Positions 46,315 through 60,006 of a DNA stretch of 64,000 nt are shown one piece after another. The notes beneath the pieces were generated by a model, which was not told the origin of the DNA, did no database searches, and saw nothing but the letters and a program-made list of their open reading frames with translations. This DNA comes from an uncultured Mucispirillum sp. Lineage in GTDB: Bacteria; Chrysiogenota; Deferribacteres; Deferribacterales; Mucispirillaceae. The stretch's first letter is position 1; every line of letters begins with the position of its first letter. The stretch lies in the NCBI GenBank assembly GCA_944324465.1, contig CALUWI010000002.1, positions 1 through 64,000 of the forward strand. Reading direction: 5' to 3'. The translations under genes and the position numbers were made by a program.

Positions 46315-48210
46315 CTATTTTTCATTTCTTGCTGCAAAGTCTACTTTAAATTTTTCCATAATCTCAATAGATACATCAAATTCTTCTATCAGTTTTCTTA
46401 TTAAGCTGCTTAATACAGAATAAAGTTCTTTATATTTTAAGAGAAGTAAAACATCTCTTTCTGGTCCGTCATCCTGTTTATATTTAATGCTGTTTATATC
46501 CTGAAGTATTTTTATATAGATTGACTGTACATAATGCATTAAAATTAAATAAAAATCTTTTGTAGCAAATTTACTTACAGTATCTTCTATTATTTTCATA
46601 TTTGCTTTATATGTAGTGTAATCATCACCTGCTGGTTCCACATCTGTGCGTCTAAGTATTTCTTCCACTATGGTACATTTTTCTAAACCTTCATTACATA
46701 TACCAATAGTTTTATTGCAGAATTCTTTTGCATTATACAGTTTTTTTAATGTTTCTTTTATCTGCCTTTCTTTTTCTTTACTTTTTACCTGTTTTAAATG
46801 TTTTTTAATAACAGCAGTAGTGTTAATATCTTCTTTTATATATTTATCAATTGCTTCCTGAAATGTCATAATCTGGGTGCCGTGTATTTTTGCACCACCT
46901 TCTGTCGCATTTATTGCAGTGCCTTTATATGTGGCAATATCTCTTTCATAGTGAAGCAGGAACTGTTTATATACCCGTCTTGTTTTAACTGTTGGCTGAT
47001 AGTTACCTTCTATTTCAATAAGCCCAGTTTCATTTGATTTTGCATTACCATAGTGGAAGCCTGCTGCGTGGCTGACTAAATCATTACTCAAAGATAAATC
47101 CTGCCCTATCATAATGATAGGGTCACAGCCTAAATATTCTAATATTTTAAAAGCCATATTACCAGCTGATGGTCCAATATCTAATATACCTTTTTTAATA
47201 TCAAGCCATTCAAATGTTGCAAAATTACGATAAACTATAATTTTTTCACCAGGGAAATTTGCATAAGTTTCTGGAACTACTACAGGACATGCAGCTAAAT
47301 AAGAATCTTTTACATCTTCTTCTGTTAGTCCCTCAAAAAGATATGATGTTTCAATAACACGCTCTAAACTTGTAACAAGGTGAGCAGGCGGCAGGTTATG
47401 GTGTTTTAAGATTTTCACACTTCCATCTGCTGCGCATATTACAGCCTTTTCTCTAAGCCCTTCTAATAATTTAACATTTTTATCAAGAGATGGGCCAGAT
47501 GCTACAACAATACCTGGTTTTCCTTTAAATACATCTTTTAAATCAGCAATACCTGGATAATCAATAATAGTAGGAATATTTCTTAAAGTATATTTTATAC
47601 CTAAAAGACTGTCATAAGGGTCATTACCATAAAGCAGAAGAACCTGATTTATGGCTTCTTTCACCATTTTTAAAGAATTTAAATAATATTCTTTATTTGC
47701 ACCAAAAGAAACTGGCTGCTCTATAACATTTATAGCTTTTAAAAAATACATATTAGCTGTCATATTAAAAAAATTAAACATAACAGGATAAGATAATCTT
47801 ATATCTTCGCAGCCTGCAAAATAAACATTAGGGCTGTTAATTAAATCTGTACAATTAACTTTACTGAATGTAGTCTTTAAAAGCTCAGGGTCTCTTTCAA
47901 TAATTAATAACCTTGCTCTAGGACACTGTCTTATATATTCATGAGCCTCATAAGAAAGCCCAAAACCTAAAAATACTGCCACATCAGGAACATTTAATTT
48001 TCTTGATTTTATATCCTGCTCAGCAACACGGTATGGGTCTATATTATTATAAAAATTTTTATTAAATTTTACATCAACTATAGAAGGAAGTTTATCTTTT
48101 CTTTGAGATGGTGCAATTACATACCTGCCTGTTAATTTGGTATTATCAACAATTTGAGCAAGTCGTGGGTTGCGTTTTGCAAGTGCTTCTATATTTTTCT
48201 TATAAGGCAT
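46315..48210 (-). CDS. motility-associated glycosyltransferase (Maf/DUF115 family)
   Basis: A protein of 631 aa with the central Maf/MptE-like fold: GKPGIVVASGPSLDKNV (about 230), AADGSVKIL and later MIGQDLSLSND. An alpha-helical C-terminus follows. Maf proteins attach pseudaminic or legionaminic acid to flagellin in Campylobacter, Helicobacter and Aeromonas. Its place at the end of the nonulosonate operon makes flagellin the likely acceptor, though no flagellin gene is in the window. AAGGAGA precedes the ATG. Confidence 0.9.
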   Translation of the reverse strand: MPYKKNIEALAKRNPRLAQIVDNTKLTGRYVIAPSQRKDKLPSIVDVKFNKNFYNNIDPYRVAEQDIKSRKLNVPDVAVFLGFGLSYEAHEYIRQCPRARLLIIERDPELLKTTFSKVNCTDLINSPNVYFAGCEDIRLSYPVMFNFFNMTANMYFLKAINVIEQPVSFGANKEYYLNSLKMVKEAINQVLLLYGNDPYDSLLGIKYTLRNIPTIIDYPGIADLKDVFKGKPGIVVASGPSLDKNVKLLEGLREKAVICAADGSVKILKHHNLPPAHLVTSLERVIETSYLFEGLTEEDVKDSYLAACPVVVPETYANFPGEKIIVYRNFATFEWLDIKKGILDIGPSAGNMAFKILEYLGCDPIIMIGQDLSLSNDLVSHAAGFHYGNAKSNETGLIEIEGNYQPTVKTRRVYKQFLLHYERDIATYKGTAINATEGGAKIHGTQIMTFQEAIDKYIKEDINTTAVIKKHLKQVKSKEKERQIKETLKKLYNAKEFCNKTIGICNEGLEKCTIVEEILRRTDVEPAGDDYTTYKANMKIIEDTVSKFATKDFYLILMHYVQSIYIKILQDINSIKYKQDDGPERDVLLLLKYKELYSVLSSLIRKLIEEFDVSIEIMEKFKVDFAARNEK

Positions 48211-48220
48211 ATTATTCTCC

Positions 48221-49258
48221 TTAATCTATTAATTCTTTTTTTAATGGTGTATTTGCTTTTATATCTTTTACTGCTTTTCTGCCTAATATTTCATTATAAT
48301 ATTTTGGACTTATTCCTAAATTTGGACGATATGAGCCGATATTTTCAGAAGTAAAAATATCGCCTTTTTTCATATCTTTTATAACATAAAGGCTTCGCAT
48401 AAAGTGCCTGTTTTTCTGCCCTGCTAGGCTTATTTTATAATCTATTTTTCCAAGAGCTTTTTCAACTGTTCTAATATCATCTACAAGCTGCTTAAACTCT
48501 TTTTCATCAAGAGAAAATGCAGAATCTGGTGAGTTTATTGATTTATCAAGTATAAAATGCTTTTCAATAACTTTTGCTCCAAGTGCGACAGATGTTACAG
48601 CTGTAATATTAGAAAGTGTATGGTCAGAAAGACCAGTAATACAGTTAAAATCTTCACTCATCTTTTTTATCATTAAAAGATTTGCTTCTTCTATAGGGGC
48701 AGGATAACTGCTTGTACATTTTAAAAGTATAATATCATTATTTCCTGCATTTCTGCATGCATTAACTGCATCTTCTATTTCATTAAAATCTGCCACACCT
48801 GTTGAAATAATAACAGGTTTATTTTTTTTAGCAGCATATTCTATTAAAGGCAAATCATTTATTTCAAAAGATGCTATTTTATATGCTGGTACATTTAAGT
48901 CCTCTAAAAAATCTACTGCAGTTTTATCAAAAGGGGAAGAAAAAAATATAAGTCCAAGCCTGTCAGCAGTTTCTTTTAATGTTTTATGCCACTGCCATGG
49001 TGTATATGCTTTATCATAAAGCTGATAATATGTTAAGCCGTCCCATAAAGAGCCGCCTTTAATAATAAAATTTTCATCATCAGAATTTAATGTAATAGTA
49101 TCTGCACGGTATGTCTGCAACTTTACAGCATCTGCTCCAGCACGAGCAGCTGCCTCAATAGTCTTAACAGCTAAATCAAGGCTGCCGTTATGGTTTGCTG
49201 AAAGCTCTGCAATAATAAAAGTTTTTTCTTTTCCTATTTCAAAATCTGCTATTTTCAT
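48221..49258 (-). CDS. pseI: pseudaminic acid synthase (NeuB family)
   Basis: A protein of 345 aa with an N-terminal NeuB TIM barrel (AELSANHNGSLD, DAVKLQTY, IEKHFI) and a C-terminal antifreeze/SAF domain (about 285-345). It condenses a 6-deoxy-aldohexose with phosphoenolpyruvate to make a nine-carbon acid. The PseB and PseC encoded upstream point to pseudaminic rather than sialic or legionaminic acid. It overlaps the formyltransferase by 4 nt. Confidence 0.92.
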   Translation of the reverse strand: MKIADFEIGKEKTFIIAELSANHNGSLDLAVKTIEAAARAGADAVKLQTYRADTITLNSDDENFIIKGGSLWDGLTYYQLYDKAYTPWQWHKTLKETADRLGLIFFSSPFDKTAVDFLEDLNVPAYKIASFEINDLPLIEYAAKKNKPVIISTGVADFNEIEDAVNACRNAGNNDIILLKCTSSYPAPIEEANLLMIKKMSEDFNCITGLSDHTLSNITAVTSVALGAKVIEKHFILDKSINSPDSAFSLDEKEFKQLVDDIRTVEKALGKIDYKISLAGQKNRHFMRSLYVIKDMKKGDIFTSENIGSYRPNLGISPKYYNEILGRKAVKDIKANTPLKKELID

Positions 49259-49827
49259 ATTAATGCTTTTCCTGCCAGCTCTTTTACAAAAGTATCATAG
49301 CCTGCTGATTCAAGCAGGTATATATATTTTTCCTTGTCTTTTAAATAATGTATAGAGCCTGTACCCTGCTGCTTATATGATGTAATTTTATTATTTAAAA
49401 TATCTTCTGCATTATCTGCAAAGAGCTTTACAATTTCCTGTATCAGCCTGTCATAGCTTGTTTTAAGTGTATCATTTTCTATATCATCCTGCACTTTTTT
49501 CTGCAGAATAATATCTCCAGTATCAAGTCCTTTATCTATTTTATGGATTGTAACACCTTTTGGACTGTTTTCCAAATAACTCCATAAGTTAGGGTCTGCC
49601 CCTTTATTATATGGAAGAAGTGATATATGCATATTTATAATTTTATCAGGAAATAAGTCAATAATTTCCTGCCTTATAATATGTCTATAACCAAAGCTGA
49701 TAATAAAATCATAACCTTCTGTATCATCTTTGCTTAATTTATCAGTATATATATAAGTATCATGCCCACTTGATAATAAAAAATCATTTATTAAACTGCA
49801 TTTTTCCCCTAAAAGCAGTACTTTCAT
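49255..49827 (-). CDS. sugar N-formyltransferase in the pseudaminic acid operon
   Basis: A protein of 190 aa, the catalytic half of the methionyl-tRNA-formyltransferase fold without the tRNA-binding domain. The catalytic triad is present: Asn65 and His67 in INMHISLLP, and Asp102 in GLDTGDI. It should transfer formyl from N10-formyl-tetrahydrofolate to a sugar amine. It occupies the place of the acetyltransferase PseH, suggesting that the 4-amino group of the PseC product (C7 of the final sugar) is formylated. It is coupled by 4-nt overlaps on both sides. Confidence 0.85.
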   Translation of the reverse strand: MKVLLLGEKCSLINDFLLSSGHDTYIYTDKLSKDDTEGYDFIISFGYRHIIRQEIIDLFPDKIINMHISLLPYNKGADPNLWSYLENSPKGVTIHKIDKGLDTGDIILQKKVQDDIENDTLKTSYDRLIQEIVKLFADNAEDILNNKITSYKQQGTGSIHYLKDKEKYIYLLESAGYDTFVKELAGKALI

Positions 49828-50639
49828 TTATTATCCTCTATTATTTTTTTTGCATTATACATACTGTTTAATTCTAAGAGCTTTACAGCTTCTGCAAGTT
49901 CTTCTTCTCTGTTTTTAAATACATATTTCTGATATATATTATTATTTAATGCTTTAAGCCATGGATTTTTTTCAAAAAGATTAACTATATCTTTATAATT
50001 AAAATCATCTCCAAGCATAAAATAAATTAAATTCATTAATGCATAATCTTCATAAGTATCAACAGTAATGCGGATATCTGAATAATTTTGTCCGTTTTTT
50101 TCAAGTACATCTATTTTAGTATAGCTGTCATTTTTTCTTGCATGCCATGTTACATGCTCTCTGACTTTTATATCTTTTTCTTCTCTGTCTGTTCTTTTTA
50201 AAGCATCAAAAGTAATAACTTCAGTATCAAGTCCATGTGGAAAAGTTCTTTTTTCTACATTGGATACATAGTCAACTGAAGAATTTTCATGAATATTTAT
50301 ACATTCTTTTATTACTTCATAATCTATACAAGGGCAGTCTGCAGTAATGCGGACAACTCTCTCTATACCATATTTTTCGCAGGTCTTAATATACCGCATA
50401 AGTACATCTTCAAGGCTGCCTCTGAATACCTGTGCACCATATTTTAATGCTTCCTGCTCTGTTAAATCATCTTCTATATTATCGCTTGTAGCAAGAATAA
50501 CTGTATCGCATGCTTTTTTTGCACGCATTATTACTCTGCCAAGCATAGATATACCGCTTCCTGCAGGAAGTTCCATTAATATTTTATCTTTCAGCCTTGT
50601 AGATGAACGCCTTGCCTGAATAACAATACCTGTTTTCAT
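49824..50639 (-). CDS. cytidylyltransferase of the SpsF/PseF type
   Basis: A protein of 271 aa of the SpsF-like nucleotidyltransferase family. The N-terminal QARRSSTRLKDKIL carries the pyrophosphate-binding arginines, followed by RITADCPCID with catalytic acidic residues. In this operon it should activate the nonulosonate as the CMP-sugar. The C-terminal 50 residues or so are family-specific. It overlaps the formyltransferase by 4 nt. Confidence 0.87.
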   Translation of the reverse strand: MKTGIVIQARRSSTRLKDKILMELPAGSGISMLGRVIMRAKKACDTVILATSDNIEDDLTEQEALKYGAQVFRGSLEDVLMRYIKTCEKYGIERVVRITADCPCIDYEVIKECINIHENSSVDYVSNVEKRTFPHGLDTEVITFDALKRTDREEKDIKVREHVTWHARKNDSYTKIDVLEKNGQNYSDIRITVDTYEDYALMNLIYFMLGDDFNYKDIVNLFEKNPWLKALNNNIYQKYVFKNREEELAEAVKLLELNSMYNAKKIIEDNK

Positions 50640-50641
50640 GA

Positions 50642-51778
50642 TTATGCCTTTAATACAGTATTAATTTTATCTATTACAAAATAAACTTCTTCATTAGTTA
50701 AAAGCGGATAAACAGGCAGAGAAAGCTCACGCCTGTAAAAATCATAAGCAAGGGGCGTATCTTTATAATTAAAGCCTAAATCTTCGTAATAAGGGTGCTT
50801 GTTTACAGGCATATAGTGGATTTGAGTAAATATATTATTTTCTTTTAAATAATAAAATACTTTATCTCTTAACTGATTATTTTCAAAGACTACTGAAAAT
50901 AAGTGATGAGAGTTGCTTCTGTCACTATATCTTTTCTGCATTTTTATTTTACTGCTGTCTTTAAATGCTTCATAATATATATCTGCAATCTCTAATCTTC
51001 TTTTTACAAAACTATCTAATTTTTTAAGCTGGCTTATACCTAAAGCTGCCTGAATATCTGTCATTCTATAGTTATAGCCTAAAAGCTGCATTTCATGATA
51101 TGTGGGGCTGTCTGGTATATGTTTAAAATTAACTTTTTCCATACCATGACTGCGGAATAATAAACATTTTTTATATACTTCTTCATCATTTGTAAGAACA
51201 GCACCGCCCTCTGCTGTAGTAATGTGCTTTACTGGATGAAAGCTGAAAACTGCTGCATCAGAATAGAGACAGCTTCCAGTTTTGCTGTTTTTATAATAAC
51301 TGCCTAATGCATGACATGCATCTTCTACTATTTTTATATTATGATTTTTTGCAATTTTACTGATTTCCTCCATATTACAGGTAAGACCTGCATAGTGGAT
51401 AGGGGTAATTATTTTTGTATTTTTTGTAATAAGTGGATTTATTTTATTTTCATCAATGAGAAAATCATCTGCATTTATATCTGCAAACTTAACTTTAGCA
51501 TTTAAATAAAGGGCTGCATTACTTGTGGCAGCAAAAGTATTAGGACATGTAATTATTTCATCATTTTCTTTTAATCCTAAAGCAGCATAGGCAGTATGCA
51601 GTGCAGCAGTACCAGAAGATACTGCAACAGCATATTTTGCACTGGTATATTCTTTTAAAGCATTTTCAAAAGCAGGAACATATTCACCTTGAGTGATAGC
51701 TGGCGATTTTAATGCTTTTATAACTTCATCTATATCATCTTGATTAATAGTCTGTCTGCCGTAAGTAATTTTATTCAT
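50642..51778 (-). CDS. pseC: UDP-4-amino-4,6-dideoxy-N-acetyl-altrosamine transaminase PseC
   Basis: A PLP aminotransferase of 378 aa of the DegT/DnrJ/EryC1 family. The PLP lysine lies in FHPVKHITTAEGGA. It aminates the C4-keto sugar made by PseB. I chose the ATG at 51778 (MNKITYGRQTINQDDID) because it aligns with the start of characterised PseC proteins; the upstream in-frame start overlaps pseB by 17 nt. Confidence 0.94.
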   Translation of the reverse strand: MNKITYGRQTINQDDIDEVIKALKSPAITQGEYVPAFENALKEYTSAKYAVAVSSGTAALHTAYAALGLKENDEIITCPNTFAATSNAALYLNAKVKFADINADDFLIDENKINPLITKNTKIITPIHYAGLTCNMEEISKIAKNHNIKIVEDACHALGSYYKNSKTGSCLYSDAAVFSFHPVKHITTAEGGAVLTNDEEVYKKCLLFRSHGMEKVNFKHIPDSPTYHEMQLLGYNYRMTDIQAALGISQLKKLDSFVKRRLEIADIYYEAFKDSSKIKMQKRYSDRSNSHHLFSVVFENNQLRDKVFYYLKENNIFTQIHYMPVNKHPYYEDLGFNYKDTPLAYDFYRRELSLPVYPLLTNEEVYFVIDKINTVLKA

Positions 51779-51779
51779 C

Positions 51780-52781
51780 TTACTTTGCCATATCATTAAT
51801 TTTTTCCTGCACTTCCTCTGCCATTTTGCGTAAAAATTCAGGGTTTATTTTTTCAGGGTTATTATCACTTGAATAGCAGAAACCTTCTGGCAGAACTTTG
51901 CCATTAAATCGTTTTGAAGAATTTTCCCAGTTTCTAAATTCAGGCATAATTCTATAATGGTCATCAAATTCTAATGTATGGCGGGCATCATCGCTTGGTA
52001 TCATTACTTCATGCATTTTTTCACCAGGTCTAATGCCTATATCTTCTATTTTACATTCTGGTGCAATAATTTTTGCAAATTCTTCCATAGTAGCAGATGG
52101 AATTTTTGGAACAAATATTTCGCCCCCTTCCATTTCATAAAATGCTTTTATAACAAGCTCAATAGCCTGCTCTATAGTTATCCAAAACCTTGTCATCTGT
52201 CTGTTAGTTATGGTGATAACACCTTTTTTCTTCTGCTCTAAAAATAAAGGCAGAACAGAACCGCGGCTGCCAAGTACATTACCGTACCTTACAACGCTGA
52301 ATCTTGTAACTCTGCCGCCTGCATAAGCATTACCAGCTACAAATAATTTATCACTTGCAAGTTTTGTAGCACCATATAAGTTAATAGGGTTTGCAGCTTT
52401 ATCAGTAGATAATGCAACAACTTTTTTAACACCTGCATCAATAGCTGCTTCTATTACATTTTCTGCACCTATAATATTTGTTTTAATAGCTTCAAAAGGG
52501 TTATATTCTGCTGCAACTACCTGTTTAGATGCTGCTGCATGAACTATGTAATCTACACCATAAAATGCACGGTTTAATCTGTCCCTGTCTCTAACATCGC
52601 CTATAAAGAATCGGAGATTGCCTATATTTTTATACTTTCTTTCCATTTCATACTGTTTAAATTCATCTCTGGAAAAAATAATAATTTTATTTGGCTTATA
52701 GTGTTCGGCAATATATTTTACAAACTGTTTGCCAAAAGTGCCTGTACCGCCTGTAATTAAAATATTTTTCCCATTAAACAT
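51780..52781 (-). CDS. pseB: UDP-N-acetylglucosamine 4,6-dehydratase (inverting) PseB
   Basis: A protein of 333 aa of the short-chain dehydrogenase/reductase type. It has NADP site TGGTGTFGKQF, catalytic region ALSTDKAANPINLYGATKLA and the LGSRGSVLPLF segment. It makes UDP-2-acetamido-2,6-dideoxy-arabino-hexos-4-ulose, the first step of pseudaminic acid synthesis. It starts 16 nt after rel, so it shares the rel transcript. TTGGAGAT precedes the ATG. Confidence 0.95.
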   Translation of the reverse strand: MFNGKNILITGGTGTFGKQFVKYIAEHYKPNKIIIFSRDEFKQYEMERKYKNIGNLRFFIGDVRDRDRLNRAFYGVDYIVHAAASKQVVAAEYNPFEAIKTNIIGAENVIEAAIDAGVKKVVALSTDKAANPINLYGATKLASDKLFVAGNAYAGGRVTRFSVVRYGNVLGSRGSVLPLFLEQKKKGVITITNRQMTRFWITIEQAIELVIKAFYEMEGGEIFVPKIPSATMEEFAKIIAPECKIEDIGIRPGEKMHEVMIPSDDARHTLEFDDHYRIMPEFRNWENSSKRFNGKVLPEGFCYSSDNNPEKINPEFLRKMAEEVQEKINDMAK

Positions 52782-52797
52782 ATATACATCTCCAAAA

Positions 52798-54936
52798 TTA
52801 ACTTTGTTTTACTGAAATCACATGCTTATTACTGCATATTTTTTCAGAAAGCATATCTGCCTGCTGTTTATTTGTAACCATAACAACAAATTCCATTTTT
52901 GCTGTACCATCACCGTAATTTTTTATATTCATTTCATAAATATTTAAGCCCATATCTTTTATGATAGTGGATATTTCAACAAATACACCAGGCATATCTT
53001 CAAGTATTGCTTTATATTTAACAGGCATACTTAGTTTATTAGAACTATCCCACTCTACATCAACTATTCTGTCTTTATTGTCCTCTAATTTAGCAATATT
53101 TGGACAATCTGCTTTATGTACAATTATTCCTCTGCCTGTTGAAACATATCCTTTAATAGCATCCCCTGGAAGTGGTGAGCAGCATTTTGCGGTTTTTATC
53201 ATCATATTATCTACACCGCTTATTTTAAATGGCTCTGCTTTCCTGTTTGATGCCTGTTTAACTTCTATTTCTTCTTCTTTTACATCTGGTAAAAAAAGAT
53301 GTAGCAATTTTCTTGCCGAAATTTGACCAAACCCTACATGAGTTATTAATTCTTCAAGATTATGCATTGAAAATTTATCAAGAGCTTTCTTTAAATTCTG
53401 CTCATCTGCTATCACTTCGTCAAAATCAAGACCAGAATGTTTAAACTCTTTATTTAAAAGTTCTCTGCCTGTTAAGATAGCTTTTTCTGCATCTTTTTTC
53501 CGTAAAAATGCACTAATTCTTGAATGAGCTCTGTTAGTTTTTACAATGTTAAGCCAATCTTTTCTAGGCTCTTGAGTTTGTGATGTTAATATTTCTACTT
53601 TATCACCGCTATTTAATTTTGCCTTTAATGGTGCAATTCTGCCGTTAATTTTTGCACCAACACATGTATGACCAACCTGAGAGTGAATAGCATAGGCAAA
53701 ATCAATAGGTGTTGAGCCTACAGGAAGTTCTACCACATGGCCGTGCGGAGTAAATACAAATATCTGTTCCTGGAATACATCTTCTTTAATAGCATTTACA
53801 AACTCGGTAGGTGGTTTTTCCTTATTATCATCTTCTAATGCTTTTCTTAGCCATACAAACTGTTTATCTTCTTTAGGGTTAAATATACGGCCCTCTTTAT
53901 ATGCCCAGTGAGCTGCAACCCCTTCTTCTGCTATTTTATGCATTTCTTTTGTACGGATTTGAAATTCTACCATCATGCCGCCAGGTCCCATAACAGTAGT
54001 ATGTATTGACTGGTACATATTGGCTTTTGGGTTTGCAATATAGTCTTTTATTCTATGCGGTATTGGTGTCCATAAAGAGTGGATAATACCAAGGGCGGAA
54101 TAACAGTCTGATTTTGTATTAACAATAACACGCAGAGCCAGTAAATCAAAAATATCTTCAAAGGATGTGCCTTTTTTTATCATTTTAGAGTATATGCTGT
54201 AAAAATGTTTAGGTCTTCCTGATATTTCCCCTTCAATATTTGCTTTCTGCAAAGCAAGTGAAATAATATCTTTTACTTCGCTTAAATATTCTTCCCGCTC
54301 GCCCCGTTTCATTTTTACTTTCTGGTGTATTTCATAATACATTTCTGGATTTAATACACGGAATGCTCTATCTTCTAGCTCCCATTTTATCCAGGCAATA
54401 CCAAGCCTGTCTGCAAGTGGAGCATAAATATCCATAGTTTCTCTTGCTATGCGTTTCTGCTTATCTTCCCTTAAGCTCTCAATAGTCCGCATATTATGCA
54501 GTCTATCTGCAAGTTTGATAATAATAACCCTTATATCATCGCTCATAGAGATAAGCATTTTTCTAAAGGATTCTGCCTGTTTTTCTTCTTTTGACTGGAA
54601 TGGTATTTTACTGATTTTTGAAACTGCATCTACTAAAAATGCAACTGATAAGCCAAACATTTCCTCTATTACTTCATAAGTAGTATCAGTATCTTCAATA
54701 GTGTCATGCAGAAGACCTGCAATAATACAGTCCACATCCATCTTCATTTCAGCAAGAATATAGGCAACATTTAATGGGTGGGAAAGATATGCCTCCCCAC
54801 TCTGCCTAATCTGCCCTCTGTGCTGCTGGGCTGCATAAACATAAGCAATATTTAATTTATCTATCTGGGCTTCAGGATTATTGCTTAAAACTTTATCCTG
54901 AATATCCATAAGTCTGATTGTTTTTTGAATACTCAT
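52798..54936 (-). CDS. rel: bifunctional (p)ppGpp synthetase/hydrolase (Rel/SpoT)
   Basis: A protein of 712 aa with an HD hydrolase domain (His77-Asp78 in GLLHDTIEDT), a synthetase domain (RIKDYIANPKANMYQSIHT), TGS (about 395-455), a helical region and ACT (about 635-710). Both active sites appear intact, so it can make and degrade the stringent-response alarmone. It is the only such enzyme in the window. A consensus promoter lies upstream, and the pse genes follow within 16 nt. Confidence 0.95.
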   Translation of the reverse strand: MSIQKTIRLMDIQDKVLSNNPEAQIDKLNIAYVYAAQQHRGQIRQSGEAYLSHPLNVAYILAEMKMDVDCIIAGLLHDTIEDTDTTYEVIEEMFGLSVAFLVDAVSKISKIPFQSKEEKQAESFRKMLISMSDDIRVIIIKLADRLHNMRTIESLREDKQKRIARETMDIYAPLADRLGIAWIKWELEDRAFRVLNPEMYYEIHQKVKMKRGEREEYLSEVKDIISLALQKANIEGEISGRPKHFYSIYSKMIKKGTSFEDIFDLLALRVIVNTKSDCYSALGIIHSLWTPIPHRIKDYIANPKANMYQSIHTTVMGPGGMMVEFQIRTKEMHKIAEEGVAAHWAYKEGRIFNPKEDKQFVWLRKALEDDNKEKPPTEFVNAIKEDVFQEQIFVFTPHGHVVELPVGSTPIDFAYAIHSQVGHTCVGAKINGRIAPLKAKLNSGDKVEILTSQTQEPRKDWLNIVKTNRAHSRISAFLRKKDAEKAILTGRELLNKEFKHSGLDFDEVIADEQNLKKALDKFSMHNLEELITHVGFGQISARKLLHLFLPDVKEEEIEVKQASNRKAEPFKISGVDNMMIKTAKCCSPLPGDAIKGYVSTGRGIIVHKADCPNIAKLEDNKDRIVDVEWDSSNKLSMPVKYKAILEDMPGVFVEISTIIKDMGLNIYEMNIKNYGDGTAKMEFVVMVTNKQQADMLSEKICSNKHVISVKQS

Positions 54937-54963
54937 AAGCAAATACCATACAAATTAATATGT

Positions 54964-54992: not shown

Positions 54993-55024
54993 GTGATTTT
55001 AAAAATTAATTTGAATTTTTACCC

Positions 55025-56497
55025 TTAAAATCTAAAATATATAAAAGATTTAAAAGTAGAGCCAAATAATGGCATGATACATATTAAAAACAATAATAAA
55101 ATCATCAAACTACTTATACCTGCCATAGCTGTTTTTTTAACACTGCCTGCATTATTAAAAATAATCTGATATTTTGAACGTAAATATGGGAAAACAGGAG
55201 TTGATAAAATAATACCTGCAATTAAGGCAATAATATAATCTCCTGCAAATGCATTTAAATATACCATACTTTCTTTAATATGTTCTGGATAAAATCCAAA
55301 TAATGACTTATAATAATTTACAGCCTGTTCAAATGTATTTGCTCTAAAAAGCACCCATCCAAACATAAACATTAATATAACATAACAATGTTTCAATACT
55401 GATGGCAATTTCTCTATGAGTTTAGGAAACATTTTTTCAAGAGTTAAGAAAAAGCCATGATATAACCCCCATAAAACAAACATTATACTTGCACCATGCC
55501 ATAAACCACAAAGAAAAAATACAATAATTTGATTTATATAACTTCTAAATTGCCCTTTTCTATTTCCTCCAAGTGGTATATATACATAATCGCGAAACCA
55601 TGTTGATAAAGATATATGCCATCTTCTCCAAAACTCTTTTACACTTTTTGAAATATATGGATAATTAAAATTTTCTGGAAATTTAAATCCAAGCATATGT
55701 CCAATTCCTATTGCCATATCTGAATAACCAGAAAAATCAAAATAAATCTGCAGTGAATAGCTGATAATACCTAACCATGCACTAAATGCTGAAAGTTCTC
55801 CATTTGGAACAGCAAAAGCAGCATCCGCAACTCTACCTAATGTATCAGCTATTAATAATTTTTTAGCAAGCCCCATAATAAATCGGGAAGCACCATTGCT
55901 AAATCTTTCAATAGTAATATTTCTATATGTTAGCTCTTGCTCTATATGAGAATATCTTACTATTGGACCAGCGACAAGCTGTGGAAAAAGTGTTATGTAA
56001 CTTGCAAAATTGATAAAGTTATATGTAGCTTTAACTTCTCCTTTATATACATCAATTAAATAGCTGATGCTTTGAAATACATAAAAACTTATACCAAGTG
56101 GCAGTGCAACTTCAACAATAGATTTGATTTTTTCATTTTCAGACAAAAAGAAATTTACTAAATCAAGTCCTATTAAATCCATAAAAAAATTATAATATTT
56201 AAAATATCCTAATATTGATAAATTAAAGATTATACTTACAATAAGAACTATTTTTTTATATTTTAACTTATTTATTAATATTCCAGAAATATATGTAATA
56301 AATGTTACTGCAAGCATTATATAAATATGCTTAGGCTCTCCCCAGAAATAAAAAAGCAGACTGGATAAAAGTAAAAATAAATTTAAAATTACAAACTTAT
56401 TACTTTTTAATGAATATAAAGATAAATATATTAATGAAGCTGTAAGTAAAACTATAGGCAGAAAGACCATTAAAAATATTACAGAACTAAATACCAT
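55025..56497 (-). CDS. MBOAT-family O-acyltransferase (AlgI-like)
   Basis: A polytopic membrane protein of 490 aa with MBOAT hallmarks: FPQLVAGPIVRY, FSGYSDMAIGIG, FWRRWHISLSTWFRDYVYIP and the catalytic histidine in LCGLWHGAS. Such proteins move acetyl groups across the membrane for a periplasmic transferase, as in alginate acetylation. The AlgJ-like gene upstream (1 nt apart) is the expected partner. The sugar acetylated is unknown; the adjacent pseudaminic acid locus or a cell-surface polysaccharide are possibilities. Confidence 0.93.
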   Translation of the reverse strand: MVFSSVIFLMVFLPIVLLTASLIYLSLYSLKSNKFVILNLFLLLSSLLFYFWGEPKHIYIMLAVTFITYISGILINKLKYKKIVLIVSIIFNLSILGYFKYYNFFMDLIGLDLVNFFLSENEKIKSIVEVALPLGISFYVFQSISYLIDVYKGEVKATYNFINFASYITLFPQLVAGPIVRYSHIEQELTYRNITIERFSNGASRFIMGLAKKLLIADTLGRVADAAFAVPNGELSAFSAWLGIISYSLQIYFDFSGYSDMAIGIGHMLGFKFPENFNYPYISKSVKEFWRRWHISLSTWFRDYVYIPLGGNRKGQFRSYINQIIVFFLCGLWHGASIMFVLWGLYHGFFLTLEKMFPKLIEKLPSVLKHCYVILMFMFGWVLFRANTFEQAVNYYKSLFGFYPEHIKESMVYLNAFAGDYIIALIAGIILSTPVFPYLRSKYQIIFNNAGSVKKTAMAGISSLMILLLFLICIMPLFGSTFKSFIYFRF

Positions 56498-56498
56498 A

Positions 56499-58064
56499 CT
56501 AGTTTTTCTCCCTTAACTCTTTTATTTCTGCAAAAACATATTTACCATCAATATTACCAGGAATTAAACGAGCATATATAGTTTGGTTAGGATTAGATTT
56601 TATATAAAAGCTGATACCTTCTAAATTCCCCCCCCCATTAAGTTTAGCAGAAACTTTCTTACTATTACTAAAATCTTTATTGCTAGAATATTCAAGAACT
56701 GCTTTTGTTTTTTTGGGCGATTTATATCTAAAAGAAATATATATTTCGCCATTTTTATCTGTTATAAGCTGCTTATTAATGTTTACATACTTATTATTTT
56801 TATTAATTTCAATATCTGCTGAACTTATTTTTTCTGAACTGAAAACAATATCTTCAGGAAAAATAAAATTTTCATTTTTACCCAAAGCATATCTTCCTGC
56901 AATTTGAAAAATTTTATCTTTTGGGACTGCTCCAAGCATTCGTTCAGTAATAGCATAAACAAATGCATCTGCATTTATAAATTGAAGGTAGTTAATTAGA
57001 TATTCATAACTTATTTTTTCATAAAGCGATGTATGCATATATTTATTAACTCCATATATTAATGGAATTATTCTTCCATTGATTCCTTTAATATTTATAT
57101 TCATTCCAATGGATTTAAATGAAGAATCAGTTGATATTAAAAGGTTAATACCTCCATCATTTTTTTTATTAATTAAGTAATCAGCTATTTTAGTTTTATC
57201 TTTATTAATAATTTTATATGGATTTTCCTCAATTTTAATTGTTTTATTAAAATTTTCTTCAGCATATATAAACGGTATACTTTCATATTTATACTTACCA
57301 ACACGAGGAACGGCCTCTACTTTTTTATTTTTAAAAAAGTACCCATTTTCAAAATCATTATAATTAAATTTCTTATTATTAACGCCATCTATATGCCTGG
57401 CTATTTCTTTCATAGTTAAATCTAAACCATTGTGATTATAGTGGTAGTAATCAAACCTTTTTGCAAACAATTCTTGACTTGACTGCTTAAATGTTGTAAG
57501 TAAATCAATATCTGCAAAATCATAACCATGTATATGTTGATGAACATATTCATAAAATGATGGAATATAGTGTCTTCTTTTAAACTCCAGCATCCATTGA
57601 GGCAGATGATTTTCCCACAAAGAGATTTTATCAGGGATAGTTAAATATATAAATTTACAATTATAGTAATTTGTAATTAAATTTATACCACTTAAAATAT
57701 CAAGAATTGGTATAGCATCTAAACTTGGAGTGTCTAAATACCTTTTTATAAGTGGAGCAGCATATGCTTCATCATTAACACGAATAAAATAATCTGATAC
57801 AGGCGAATAAAGCTTCCATGCAAAAATATAATGATACATTTTTATTATCTGAGTTCTAAATACCATATTATCATTTAAATATTTTTCTATTTGCTTTGGA
57901 TAGTCTGATACAGAAGCATTTTGCAATATTTTTTTAGAAGCAAGTGCTCTATTTTCTCCTATATCTGTAGATGAAAATATATTAATATTAAATGCTGTAA
58001 AAAAAATAGGCACAGACATAATTAAGAAAAAAAGTAAAACGAAAAATATTCTCAATATTTTCAT
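56499..58064 (-). CDS. AlgJ/AlgX-like (DHHW) acetyltransferase partner, with G9 tract
   Basis: A protein of 521 aa with one N-terminal membrane helix (about 5-25) and an SGNH-like extracytoplasmic domain. STDSSF (about 315) fits the nucleophile block and RFDYYHYNHNGLDL the D-H-x-x region of AlgJ/AlgX. The C-terminal 130 residues form a beta-rich module. The coding strand contains nine consecutive G residues (56636-56628, encoding Gly-Gly-Gly). In AT-rich DNA this is a strong slippage candidate, and the present length keeps the frame open. Confidence 0.8.
   Translation of the reverse strand: MKILRIFFVLLFFLIMSVPIFFTAFNINIFSSTDIGENRALASKKILQNASVSDYPKQIEKYLNDNMVFRTQIIKMYHYIFAWKLYSPVSDYFIRVNDEAYAAPLIKRYLDTPSLDAIPILDILSGINLITNYYNCKFIYLTIPDKISLWENHLPQWMLEFKRRHYIPSFYEYVHQHIHGYDFADIDLLTTFKQSSQELFAKRFDYYHYNHNGLDLTMKEIARHIDGVNNKKFNYNDFENGYFFKNKKVEAVPRVGKYKYESIPFIYAEENFNKTIKIEENPYKIINKDKTKIADYLINKKNDGGINLLISTDSSFKSIGMNINIKGINGRIIPLIYGVNKYMHTSLYEKISYEYLINYLQFINADAFVYAITERMLGAVPKDKIFQIAGRYALGKNENFIFPEDIVFSSEKISSADIEINKNNKYVNINKQLITDKNGEIYISFRYKSPKKTKAVLEYSSNKDFSNSKKVSAKLNGGGNLEGISFYIKSNPNQTIYARLIPGNIDGKYVFAEIKELREKN
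56628..56636 (-). repeat. homopolymer G9 tract (possible phase-variation site)
   Basis: Nine C residues on the plus strand lie inside the AlgJ-like gene. A gain or loss of one base would shift the frame in the C-terminal third. Confidence 0.7.
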
Positions 58065-58127
58065 AAAATTAAATACACACCTTTTGCAGTATAACTATCT
58101 AAAAGTATCACATCTTTATTATTTTTG

Positions 58128-59888
58128 TCAATCAGCTTTTTTTATGTCTTTTAAGTTAAGCTGTATAGTTTTTGTATTTTTCCATGTATTATGTACAAGA
58201 GAAAAAAGAATATCAAATTTATCATTTTCTGCCATTAACGACTTATATTCTTTCATATTAAATCCAATAGCATCAAAAATAAGACCATTTTTTTCAAAAA
58301 AGCATTTTAAATGGTTTAAATCTTTGCCAACAAAAGATTCTACCTGATATTTATAAACATTTCTCATAAAAAATACAGGCTCTTTATTACCTTGACCGTA
58401 AGGTTCTAATTTTTCAAGCCACTGCATTATTTCATTTGTAATATCTTTAGAATCTATTTCTGCATCTATATATATTTCTGGTATAAAATCATCTTCTTTT
58501 AAGGAAGATTTTACCACTTCATCAAATCTGTTTCTAAATTCTTCCAGATTTTTCTTTTCTAATTTTACACCTGCTGCATATTTATGGCCGCCAAAGGATA
58601 TTAATATATCAGACAAACTGCTTAAACCTTCGTATAAATGAAAACCGGGAATACTTCTTGCCGAGCCTTTATATACACCATTATCTTCAGTTAAGATAAC
58701 TGTAGGTTTAAAATATTTATCAACCACTCTTGATGCCACTATACCAATAACACCCGAGTGCCAGTTATCAGAGGCTATTACAAGACCTGCCCTGTCTTCT
58801 GCATAGCGGTTTTTCTCTATTAAATCATAAGTCTGCTGCAGAATATCACGCTCTATCATCTGCCTGTATTTATTTTCATTATCAAGCTCTAAGGCAAGCT
58901 GTTTAGCTTCATTTCTGTTTTGAGTAACAAGTAGTTTTAAACTTTTATCTGAACTTGCCATTCTGCCCATAGCATTAATCCGCGGAGCAAGCTGAAAGCC
59001 AATATTTGATGTTTTCATTTTTTTAGATGATGCTAAACTTTCCACAGTTTTTTTAAGCTCATCTATACCTATACGGACATTTTCCCCGCTCATAAGCTCT
59101 AATCCATGGCGGACAAATATCCTGTTTTCATCTACAAGAGGCATAACATCTGCTATTGTACCAAGAGTAACAATATCTAAAAGGTTGCGGATATTTGGCA
59201 CTTCCTGTTTAAAAAAATCATATTTTTTAAGAACAAACCTAAGAGCCATAACAGTTTTAAAAGCTACACCCACACCTGCTAATGTTTTATTAGGGTAAGT
59301 ATCATCTTCACGCATAGGGTTTACTATTGCATAGGCTGCAACAGGCAGCTCTTTTGAGGGCTGGTGGTGGTCTGTAATAATTATATCCATGCCTAGCATA
59401 CTTGCTTCAAGCACTTCTTCTATAGCACTTATGCCGCAGTCTACTGTGATTATAAGGTTTGTTTTTCTAGCGGCTATTTCTTTTATAGCATCTTTATTAA
59501 GCCCATAGCCTTCTTCTAATCTGTTTGGTATATAGTAAGATACATTTGCACCGCACTGCATTAAAAATATATACATTAATGCCGTAGCAGTAACACCGTC
59601 AACATCATAATCCCCATAAATACATATACTTTCATGGTCCATAACAGCTTTTGCAATACGCTCTGCAGCTTTTTCCATATCACTGATTTCAAAAGGGTTT
59701 CTTAATGCTTTTAATGAGCCGTTAAAAAATATCTCAATATCATCTGGAGATGATATGCCTTTTTTCAGCATTAATTCTGCAACAGGCTTAGGCATATTAT
59801 GCCTGTAAGCTGTTTCTTCAAGCAAATTTTTATCAACAGGATTATATATCCATTTGTATTTTATACTTTTAAAGTTATTATTATTCAT
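58128..59888 (-). CDS. recJ: single-stranded-DNA-specific exonuclease RecJ
   Basis: A protein of 586 aa of the DHH family. Catalytic motifs are IYGDYDVDGVTAT, VDCGIS, TDHHQPS and the DHHA1 glycine motif SFGGHKYAAG, followed by an OB-like C-terminus. It degrades single-stranded DNA 5' to 3' in recombination and mismatch repair. Start choice is uncertain: ATG 59906 and ATG 59888 both lack a clear ribosome site. Confidence 0.94.
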   Translation of the reverse strand: MNNNNFKSIKYKWIYNPVDKNLLEETAYRHNMPKPVAELMLKKGISSPDDIEIFFNGSLKALRNPFEISDMEKAAERIAKAVMDHESICIYGDYDVDGVTATALMYIFLMQCGANVSYYIPNRLEEGYGLNKDAIKEIAARKTNLIITVDCGISAIEEVLEASMLGMDIIITDHHQPSKELPVAAYAIVNPMREDDTYPNKTLAGVGVAFKTVMALRFVLKKYDFFKQEVPNIRNLLDIVTLGTIADVMPLVDENRIFVRHGLELMSGENVRIGIDELKKTVESLASSKKMKTSNIGFQLAPRINAMGRMASSDKSLKLLVTQNRNEAKQLALELDNENKYRQMIERDILQQTYDLIEKNRYAEDRAGLVIASDNWHSGVIGIVASRVVDKYFKPTVILTEDNGVYKGSARSIPGFHLYEGLSSLSDILISFGGHKYAAGVKLEKKNLEEFRNRFDEVVKSSLKEDDFIPEIYIDAEIDSKDITNEIMQWLEKLEPYGQGNKEPVFFMRNVYKYQVESFVGKDLNHLKCFFEKNGLIFDAIGFNMKEYKSLMAENDKFDILFSLVHNTWKNTKTIQLNLKDIKKAD

Positions 59889-60006
59889 TTTATTATAATA
59901 TATCATTTTTATAAAAATATACAGTATATTTTATTGATTTATCAATATTTTTCCAAAATTGATAATTAAGCCTGTATTTTATTTTATTATTTCATAAAGA
60001 ATGTTC

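Follow-up and report, generated by a model that had tools for sequence, protein, structure and literature searches.

A nine-guanine tract in an MBOAT/SGNH O-acetylation module as a probable phase-variable switch within a tract-rich genome

The best-known examples of poly-G phase variation come from Campylobacter, Helicobacter and Neisseria, and in phase variation of the Neisseria porA/opc type a poly-C run lies between the -35 and -10 hexamers. In O-acetylation systems such as AlgI/AlgJ/AlgX and PatA/PatB, an MBOAT protein carries acetyl groups across the membrane and an SGNH partner places them on the sugar. Pairs of this kind O-acetylate extracytoplasmic glycan (PMC9558356). Two phase-variable O-acetyltransferases have been described, namely NeuO of E. 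coli K1, which has heptanucleotide repeats (PMC8653822), and OafA of H. influenzae (PMC9558356). A phasome of tens of G/C tracts in an AT-rich gut bacterium, affecting genes for surface glycans among others and comprising both in-frame and out-of-frame alleles, is reported in PMC6321876 (PhasomeIt).

The locus analyzed here lies in a stretch of 64,000 nucleotides, which we refer to as the window. As in AlgI-AlgJ/AlgX and PatA-PatB, an MBOAT gene and the gene of its SGNH partner adjoin each other, the conserved His and Ser residues are present and the predicted structure matches. In contrast to those systems, the SGNH protein is highly divergent (it has no Pfam match), the Asp of its DxH motif is out of register, an additional C-terminal domain is present and the gene contains a run of nine guanines (G9). 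According to our proposal, surface-sugar O-acetylation would be switched at random, as it is by NeuO and OafA. In NeuO, however, the repeat unit is different and lies at the 5' end of the gene, whereas the mononucleotide tract described here is found near the 3' end, and OafA is an AT3-type enzyme rather than an MBOAT/SGNH pair. The surrounding genome shares the features of the published phasome listed above; it differs in belonging to another phylum (Deferribacterota, as we infer), in possessing MutS and in that many of its tracts lie within genes of Tat-exported reductases or in promoter spacers of the sigma-70 type. The latter resemble the Neisseria porA/opc type, from which the tract of the window differs by being coding.

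The sequence-only reading of this DNA had proposed a G9 tract at positions 56628-56636, and we found it at exactly this position, as C9 on the plus strand and G9 on the coding minus strand. The tract is in frame (ON) in this assembly, reads AAT GGG GGG GGG AAT in the coding strand and encodes Gly477-479 of a 521-residue open reading frame (56499-58064, minus strand), the stop codon following 42 residues further on. In the two shifted frames, stop codons occur 1 and 10 codons past the tract. The longest other G/C run in the 64-kb window is six bases, and GGG is the rarest glycine codon in the genes of the window, accounting for 10% of Gly codons.

The 521-residue protein is an AlgJ/AlgX/PatB-like SGNH protein, as judged by profile alignment, conserved residues and structure comparison; with an MBOAT as its partner as well, the earlier assignment of the gene to O-acetylation was right. 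It comprises a membrane anchor, an SGNH-like domain delimited by structure comparison (residues 88-381; 56922-57803, minus strand) and an additional C-terminal domain that holds the tract (residues 383-521; 56502-56918, minus strand; pLDDT <50 from residue 382). The protein yielded no Pfam or NCBIfam match even at loose thresholds, no match to Pfam ALGX (PF16822) at an E-value of 10 and no direct sequence match in a phmmer search of the PDB. Using hhalign, it aligned over 210 columns (probability 82, E = 1e-5) with a profile of six MBOAT partners from congeners, of which all four that were scanned match PF16822. His208 and Asp313-Ser314 align with conserved active-site positions in about 95 MBOAT-linked proteins of other bacteria: Ser314 of the GDS-type motif and His208 of the DxH motif are aligned in 93-94 of the 95 rows and are invariant in a 41-row alignment. 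The protein reads D-Y-Y-H, with the Asp three residues before the His instead of the two of DxH. Because this catalytic Asp is one residue out of register, activity of the SGNH protein is not assured.

Given 41 sequences, AlphaFold produced a model of moderate confidence that resolves the SGNH part only; over residues 82-382 its Z-scores were 16.6 with PatB1, 15.3 with a DHHW protein, 15.1 with AlgJ and 12.1-12.6 with AlgX. Without an alignment, the pLDDT was 34. At this moderate model confidence, the comparison supports an SGNH-like fold. In a protein search of 80 genomes, including nine congeners, the gene was found only in its own genome, and a contig scan with the SGNH protein as query revealed no relative.

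The partner is an AlgI/DltB-like MBOAT O-acyltransferase (55025-56497, minus strand; PF03062, E = 1.1e-32, 114 bits against a gathering cut-off of 27). Its ATG lies 1 nt past the SGNH stop codon and is preceded by a possible Shine-Dalgarno sequence, GGAG. The two genes form an additional segment (about 55011-58129, with the end point checked against the congener G003 only) between a relA/spoT homologue (52798-54942) and a recJ homologue (58128-59906), both on the minus strand and named from sequence. In all eight congeners in which the junction is visible, this segment is missing and relA directly adjoins recJ. On the same strand as the module are pseudaminic acid and flagellin glycosylation genes (46315-52781, minus strand), encoding PseB, PseC, a cytidylyltransferase, a formyltransferase-like protein, PseI and a PseD-like protein; PseB, PseC and PseI score above curated cut-offs, the PseD-like protein below its own. 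The empty relA-recJ site of the congener G006 (L061:1356-1500) contains a 33-bp alignment to the 3' end of the MBOAT gene that scored higher than all 500 AT-rich shuffles. The module is polymorphic among congeners, and this sequence is possibly a remnant of the MBOAT gene, in which case the module was probably lost in the G006 lineage. We considered a recent gain of the module; the possible remnant suggests loss instead, in the G006 lineage at least.

To the suggestion that the genome be scanned for other G/C tracts of at least eight bases, the answer is 35 tracts. Pattern searches with G6, G7 and G9 on both strands of the 2,416,792-base genome yielded seven runs of six bases, none of seven, two of eight, 24 of nine, eight of ten and one of eleven. 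Under an order-2 Markov model derived from the window, about 0.2 nine-base windows are expected in the genome; 43 were observed, in 33 tracts. Runs of three, four and five bases fall steeply (2016, 426 and 78 in 367 kb of sequence), yet 33 runs reach at least nine, so that lengths of 6-8 are depleted and those of at least nine hugely enriched. Since chance expects almost no G9, the tract is non-random and the gene that carries it very probably belongs to a large set that cells switch at random. Of the 35 tracts, 12 are coding and in frame and 11 coding and out of frame; three lie in the last codons of genes, six in promoter spacers and three in other non-coding positions.

The genus shows the same abundance, with 16-55 nine-G windows per genome in seven good-quality genomes, whereas most counts in other families of the order are 0-9, families f1 and f4 containing exceptions. 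Very high counts were seen in G037 (417) and G024 (family f4), and in G011 and G013 of the same family. The genome encodes MutS as an 859-residue open frame, and slippage rates should therefore be lower, perhaps below those of species without MutS. Mononucleotide switches work in MutS-proficient species too.

O-acetylation modules are a repeated target of such tracts within the genus. With the MBOAT as query, a protein search of ten genus members gave homologues in nine, 18 genes in all if the fragments L052/L055 are taken as one gene. Tracts are present in 13 of the 18 MBOAT/SGNH modules, at four gene positions, and five modules are tract-free. In 11 modules a G9-G11 run lies inside the MBOAT gene, nine near codons 71-77, a site common to two MBOAT subfamilies, and two at codon 229; in two modules the tract is in the SGNH partner, namely that of the window and L045 in G001. 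Among the tracted MBOAT genes, eight keep the reading frame and three (L046, L050 at G11 and L052/L055) do not. At codon 229, the tract is ON in G003 but OFF in G001, and the in-frame and out-of-frame alleles at homologous MBOAT tracts come from different species.

The sequence-only reading had taken mixed glycine codons in relatives to count against a switch. Such codons do occur at homologous sites: tract-free MBOAT genes read GGT GGG GAG or GGT GGT GAA at the codon-72 site, where others have AGT GCA GCT or AAA CAA GAC, and a glycosyltransferase gene adjoining an MBOAT paralogue reads AAT GGT GGA TAT in G003, AAT GGT followed by G9 in G000 and AAT followed by G9 in G006. They do not refute the idea, however, but show that the tract, which the lineage forms again and again, is dispensable for the protein. 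Relatives with ordinary codons, or with no glycines at all, argue for selection on the DNA tract itself. This evidence comes from homologous and sister tracts, the SGNH gene itself having no close relatives. Judged from these comparisons, other O-acetylation modules of the genus appear to have acquired a similar switch on several occasions.

The same conclusion was reached with a protein motif. We searched for E-I-I-Y-G-G-G with any glycine codons, D also being allowed at the first place; the reversed control gave no match. The 22 sites found in five genus genomes are all G8-G10 runs and none has mixed codons, although GGG makes up only 10% of Gly codons, which points to selection on the DNA and not on the protein. 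The reading frame is kept at five of these sites and broken at 17, and no genome has more than two that are ON. The four sites in the own genome belong to Tat-signal molybdopterin oxidoreductases, and the other genus sites listed show a Tat and lipobox sequence. It is possible that Tat-signal tracts, which are mostly OFF, make a random choice among respiratory reductases. In the own genome, the G8-G10 tracts at L009:5556, L015:4927, L016:5547, L022:5533 and L033:5518 immediately follow the Tat signal/lipobox of molybdopterin oxidoreductases, and that at L019:5421 just precedes the Tat motif of another. The Tat-signal sites of the genus are L176-L197; L015, which was found separately, is also ON.

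Assignment of the window tract to the phase-variation class is strongly supported: it is of a length at which hypermutability is expected and that exceeds chance, and a change of one unit would alter the product. Taken together, these data make it likely that the G9 run is a slipped-strand contingency locus that modulates glycan O-acetylation. Phase-variable O-acetylation, as first proposed from the letters of this DNA, thus stands as the best reading, given the 35 tracts in the genome and the repeated targeting of O-acetylation modules in the genus. That the SGNH gene is switched, and with what substrate and phenotype, is what we infer from this setting. Slipped-strand mispairing would add or drop one G, and out-of-frame cells would make an SGNH protein without its last 42 residues, which belong to the C-terminal domain and perhaps to a glycan-binding one. 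Ribosomes in a shifted frame would terminate some 95-125 nt upstream of the MBOAT start codon, and the resulting uncoupling may lower MBOAT translation. Cells would then switch back and forth between higher and lower O-acetylation of a glycan of the envelope or the flagellum. Most ON/OFF tracts are not placed behind a functional domain, whereas the window tract follows the SGNH domain; a frameshift would therefore clip the C-terminal domain and spare the active site, and the OFF state may be partial. Candidate substrates are a surface glycan, flagellar pseudaminic acid or peptidoglycan.

The tract could be genuinely hypermutable and yet exert its main effect on the downstream MBOAT gene, an early stop uncoupling translation so that the switch acts through the operon. 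The 1-nt distance between the SGNH stop and the MBOAT start and the closeness of both shifted stops to the tract fit this explanation, as do three other tracts of the genome that lie in last codons, two of them (L030:6505 and L037:5475) with an ATG close downstream. The GGAG motif of the MBOAT gene, however, would allow independent initiation, so that coupling may be weak, and we regard an effect mainly through MBOAT as possible but rather unlikely. A different target is also conceivable, in that the module might act on peptidoglycan, in the role of PatA/PatB, with the switch altering lysozyme resistance instead of a surface glycan. PatB1 is indeed the closest solved structure, but AlgJ and the DHHW protein are nearly as close, and the pair is accessory, being missing at this site in congeners, and shares its strand with the pseudaminic acid genes. 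This makes a peptidoglycan role doubtful.

Tolerated drift of a polyglycine loop that happens to use GGG, with no regulatory role, would account for nine in-frame Gs that merely encode three glycines in a domain of low pLDDT, and for the single tract length known for the SGNH gene, which comes from its own genome only. It does not explain why runs of seven are absent and runs of eight number two when 33 tracts have at least nine bases, why the rarest glycine codon is used, why every EIIYGGG site is a G run or why out-of-frame alleles are common at other tracts, and we consider it very improbable. Even less credible is a homopolymer length miscalled in assembly. This is a 31-contig draft assembly, and homopolymer errors exist; such an error, however, shifts a length by one base and cannot create a set of G9 tracts with no G7, and congener assemblies, including the single-contig G006, share the tract class and the peak at nine. 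The preferred reading therefore remains a contingency locus that modulates glycan O-acetylation.

What would surprise a specialist is the scale and content of the surrounding phasome. We lean slightly towards a broader view, in which a vertebrate-gut genus, apparently of the Deferribacterota, possesses a phasome of Campylobacter scale that does not appear in the literature searched. O-acetylation modules would have gained tracts at several independent positions, the same hypermutation would pick, cell by cell, Tat-exported reductases (mostly OFF) and promoter-spacer lipoproteins, and the window tract may also gate MBOAT translation. We found no report that connects Mucispirillum with phase variation or homopolymers in the literature searched, in which subscription papers are thinly covered, and the 2017 Mucispirillum genome paper mentions neither (PMC5285517). 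If the genus is Mucispirillum, as is probable, an inflammation-associated mucus dweller would have a repertoire comparable to those of Campylobacter, Helicobacter and Neisseria. Clonal cultures and mono-associated mice would then be mixed populations with respect to sugar acetylation, lipoproteins, restriction-modification and respiratory enzymes, and a phenotype ascribed to 'the strain' would consequently vary with the states of its tracts. The tracts provide concrete loci for genotyping in existing samples.

The promoter-spacer tracts follow a common design: TTGACA, a few nucleotides, C8-C10 and a TATAAT-like hexamer, with a spacing of mostly 15-16. They are found at L011:5508, L012:5551, L014:5583, L021:5388, L026:5530 and L027:5581 in the own genome, all being C-tracts save the G-tract of L027, and at L146-L175 in the genus. 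The type occurs in nine of ten genus members, mostly 5' of genes that start with a lipoprotein-like signal. Further tracts lie in two DNA methylase genes, one ON and one OFF, and in the gene of a type I specificity subunit, which is ON (L013:5556, L020:5177 and L036:5536); these are candidate phasevarions.

Tracts in the last codons of genes are those of an FdtA-like gene (L030:6505), L031:807 and a formyltransferase gene (L037:5475). The FdtA-like and formyltransferase genes are each followed closely by an ATG, so that their tracts may control coupling to, or fusion with, the next gene. Seven tracts are clustered within 14 kb of contig C9 of the own genome (L030:5168-10271 and L031:807-6830), in glycan genes encoding RgpF-like proteins (twice), an FdtA-like protein, a GT2, an MBOAT paralogue and a GT9, and in one further gene. 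The G11 run at L030:5168 is located immediately 5' of the GTG start of an RgpF-like gene, where it possibly alters the spacing of the ribosome-binding site.
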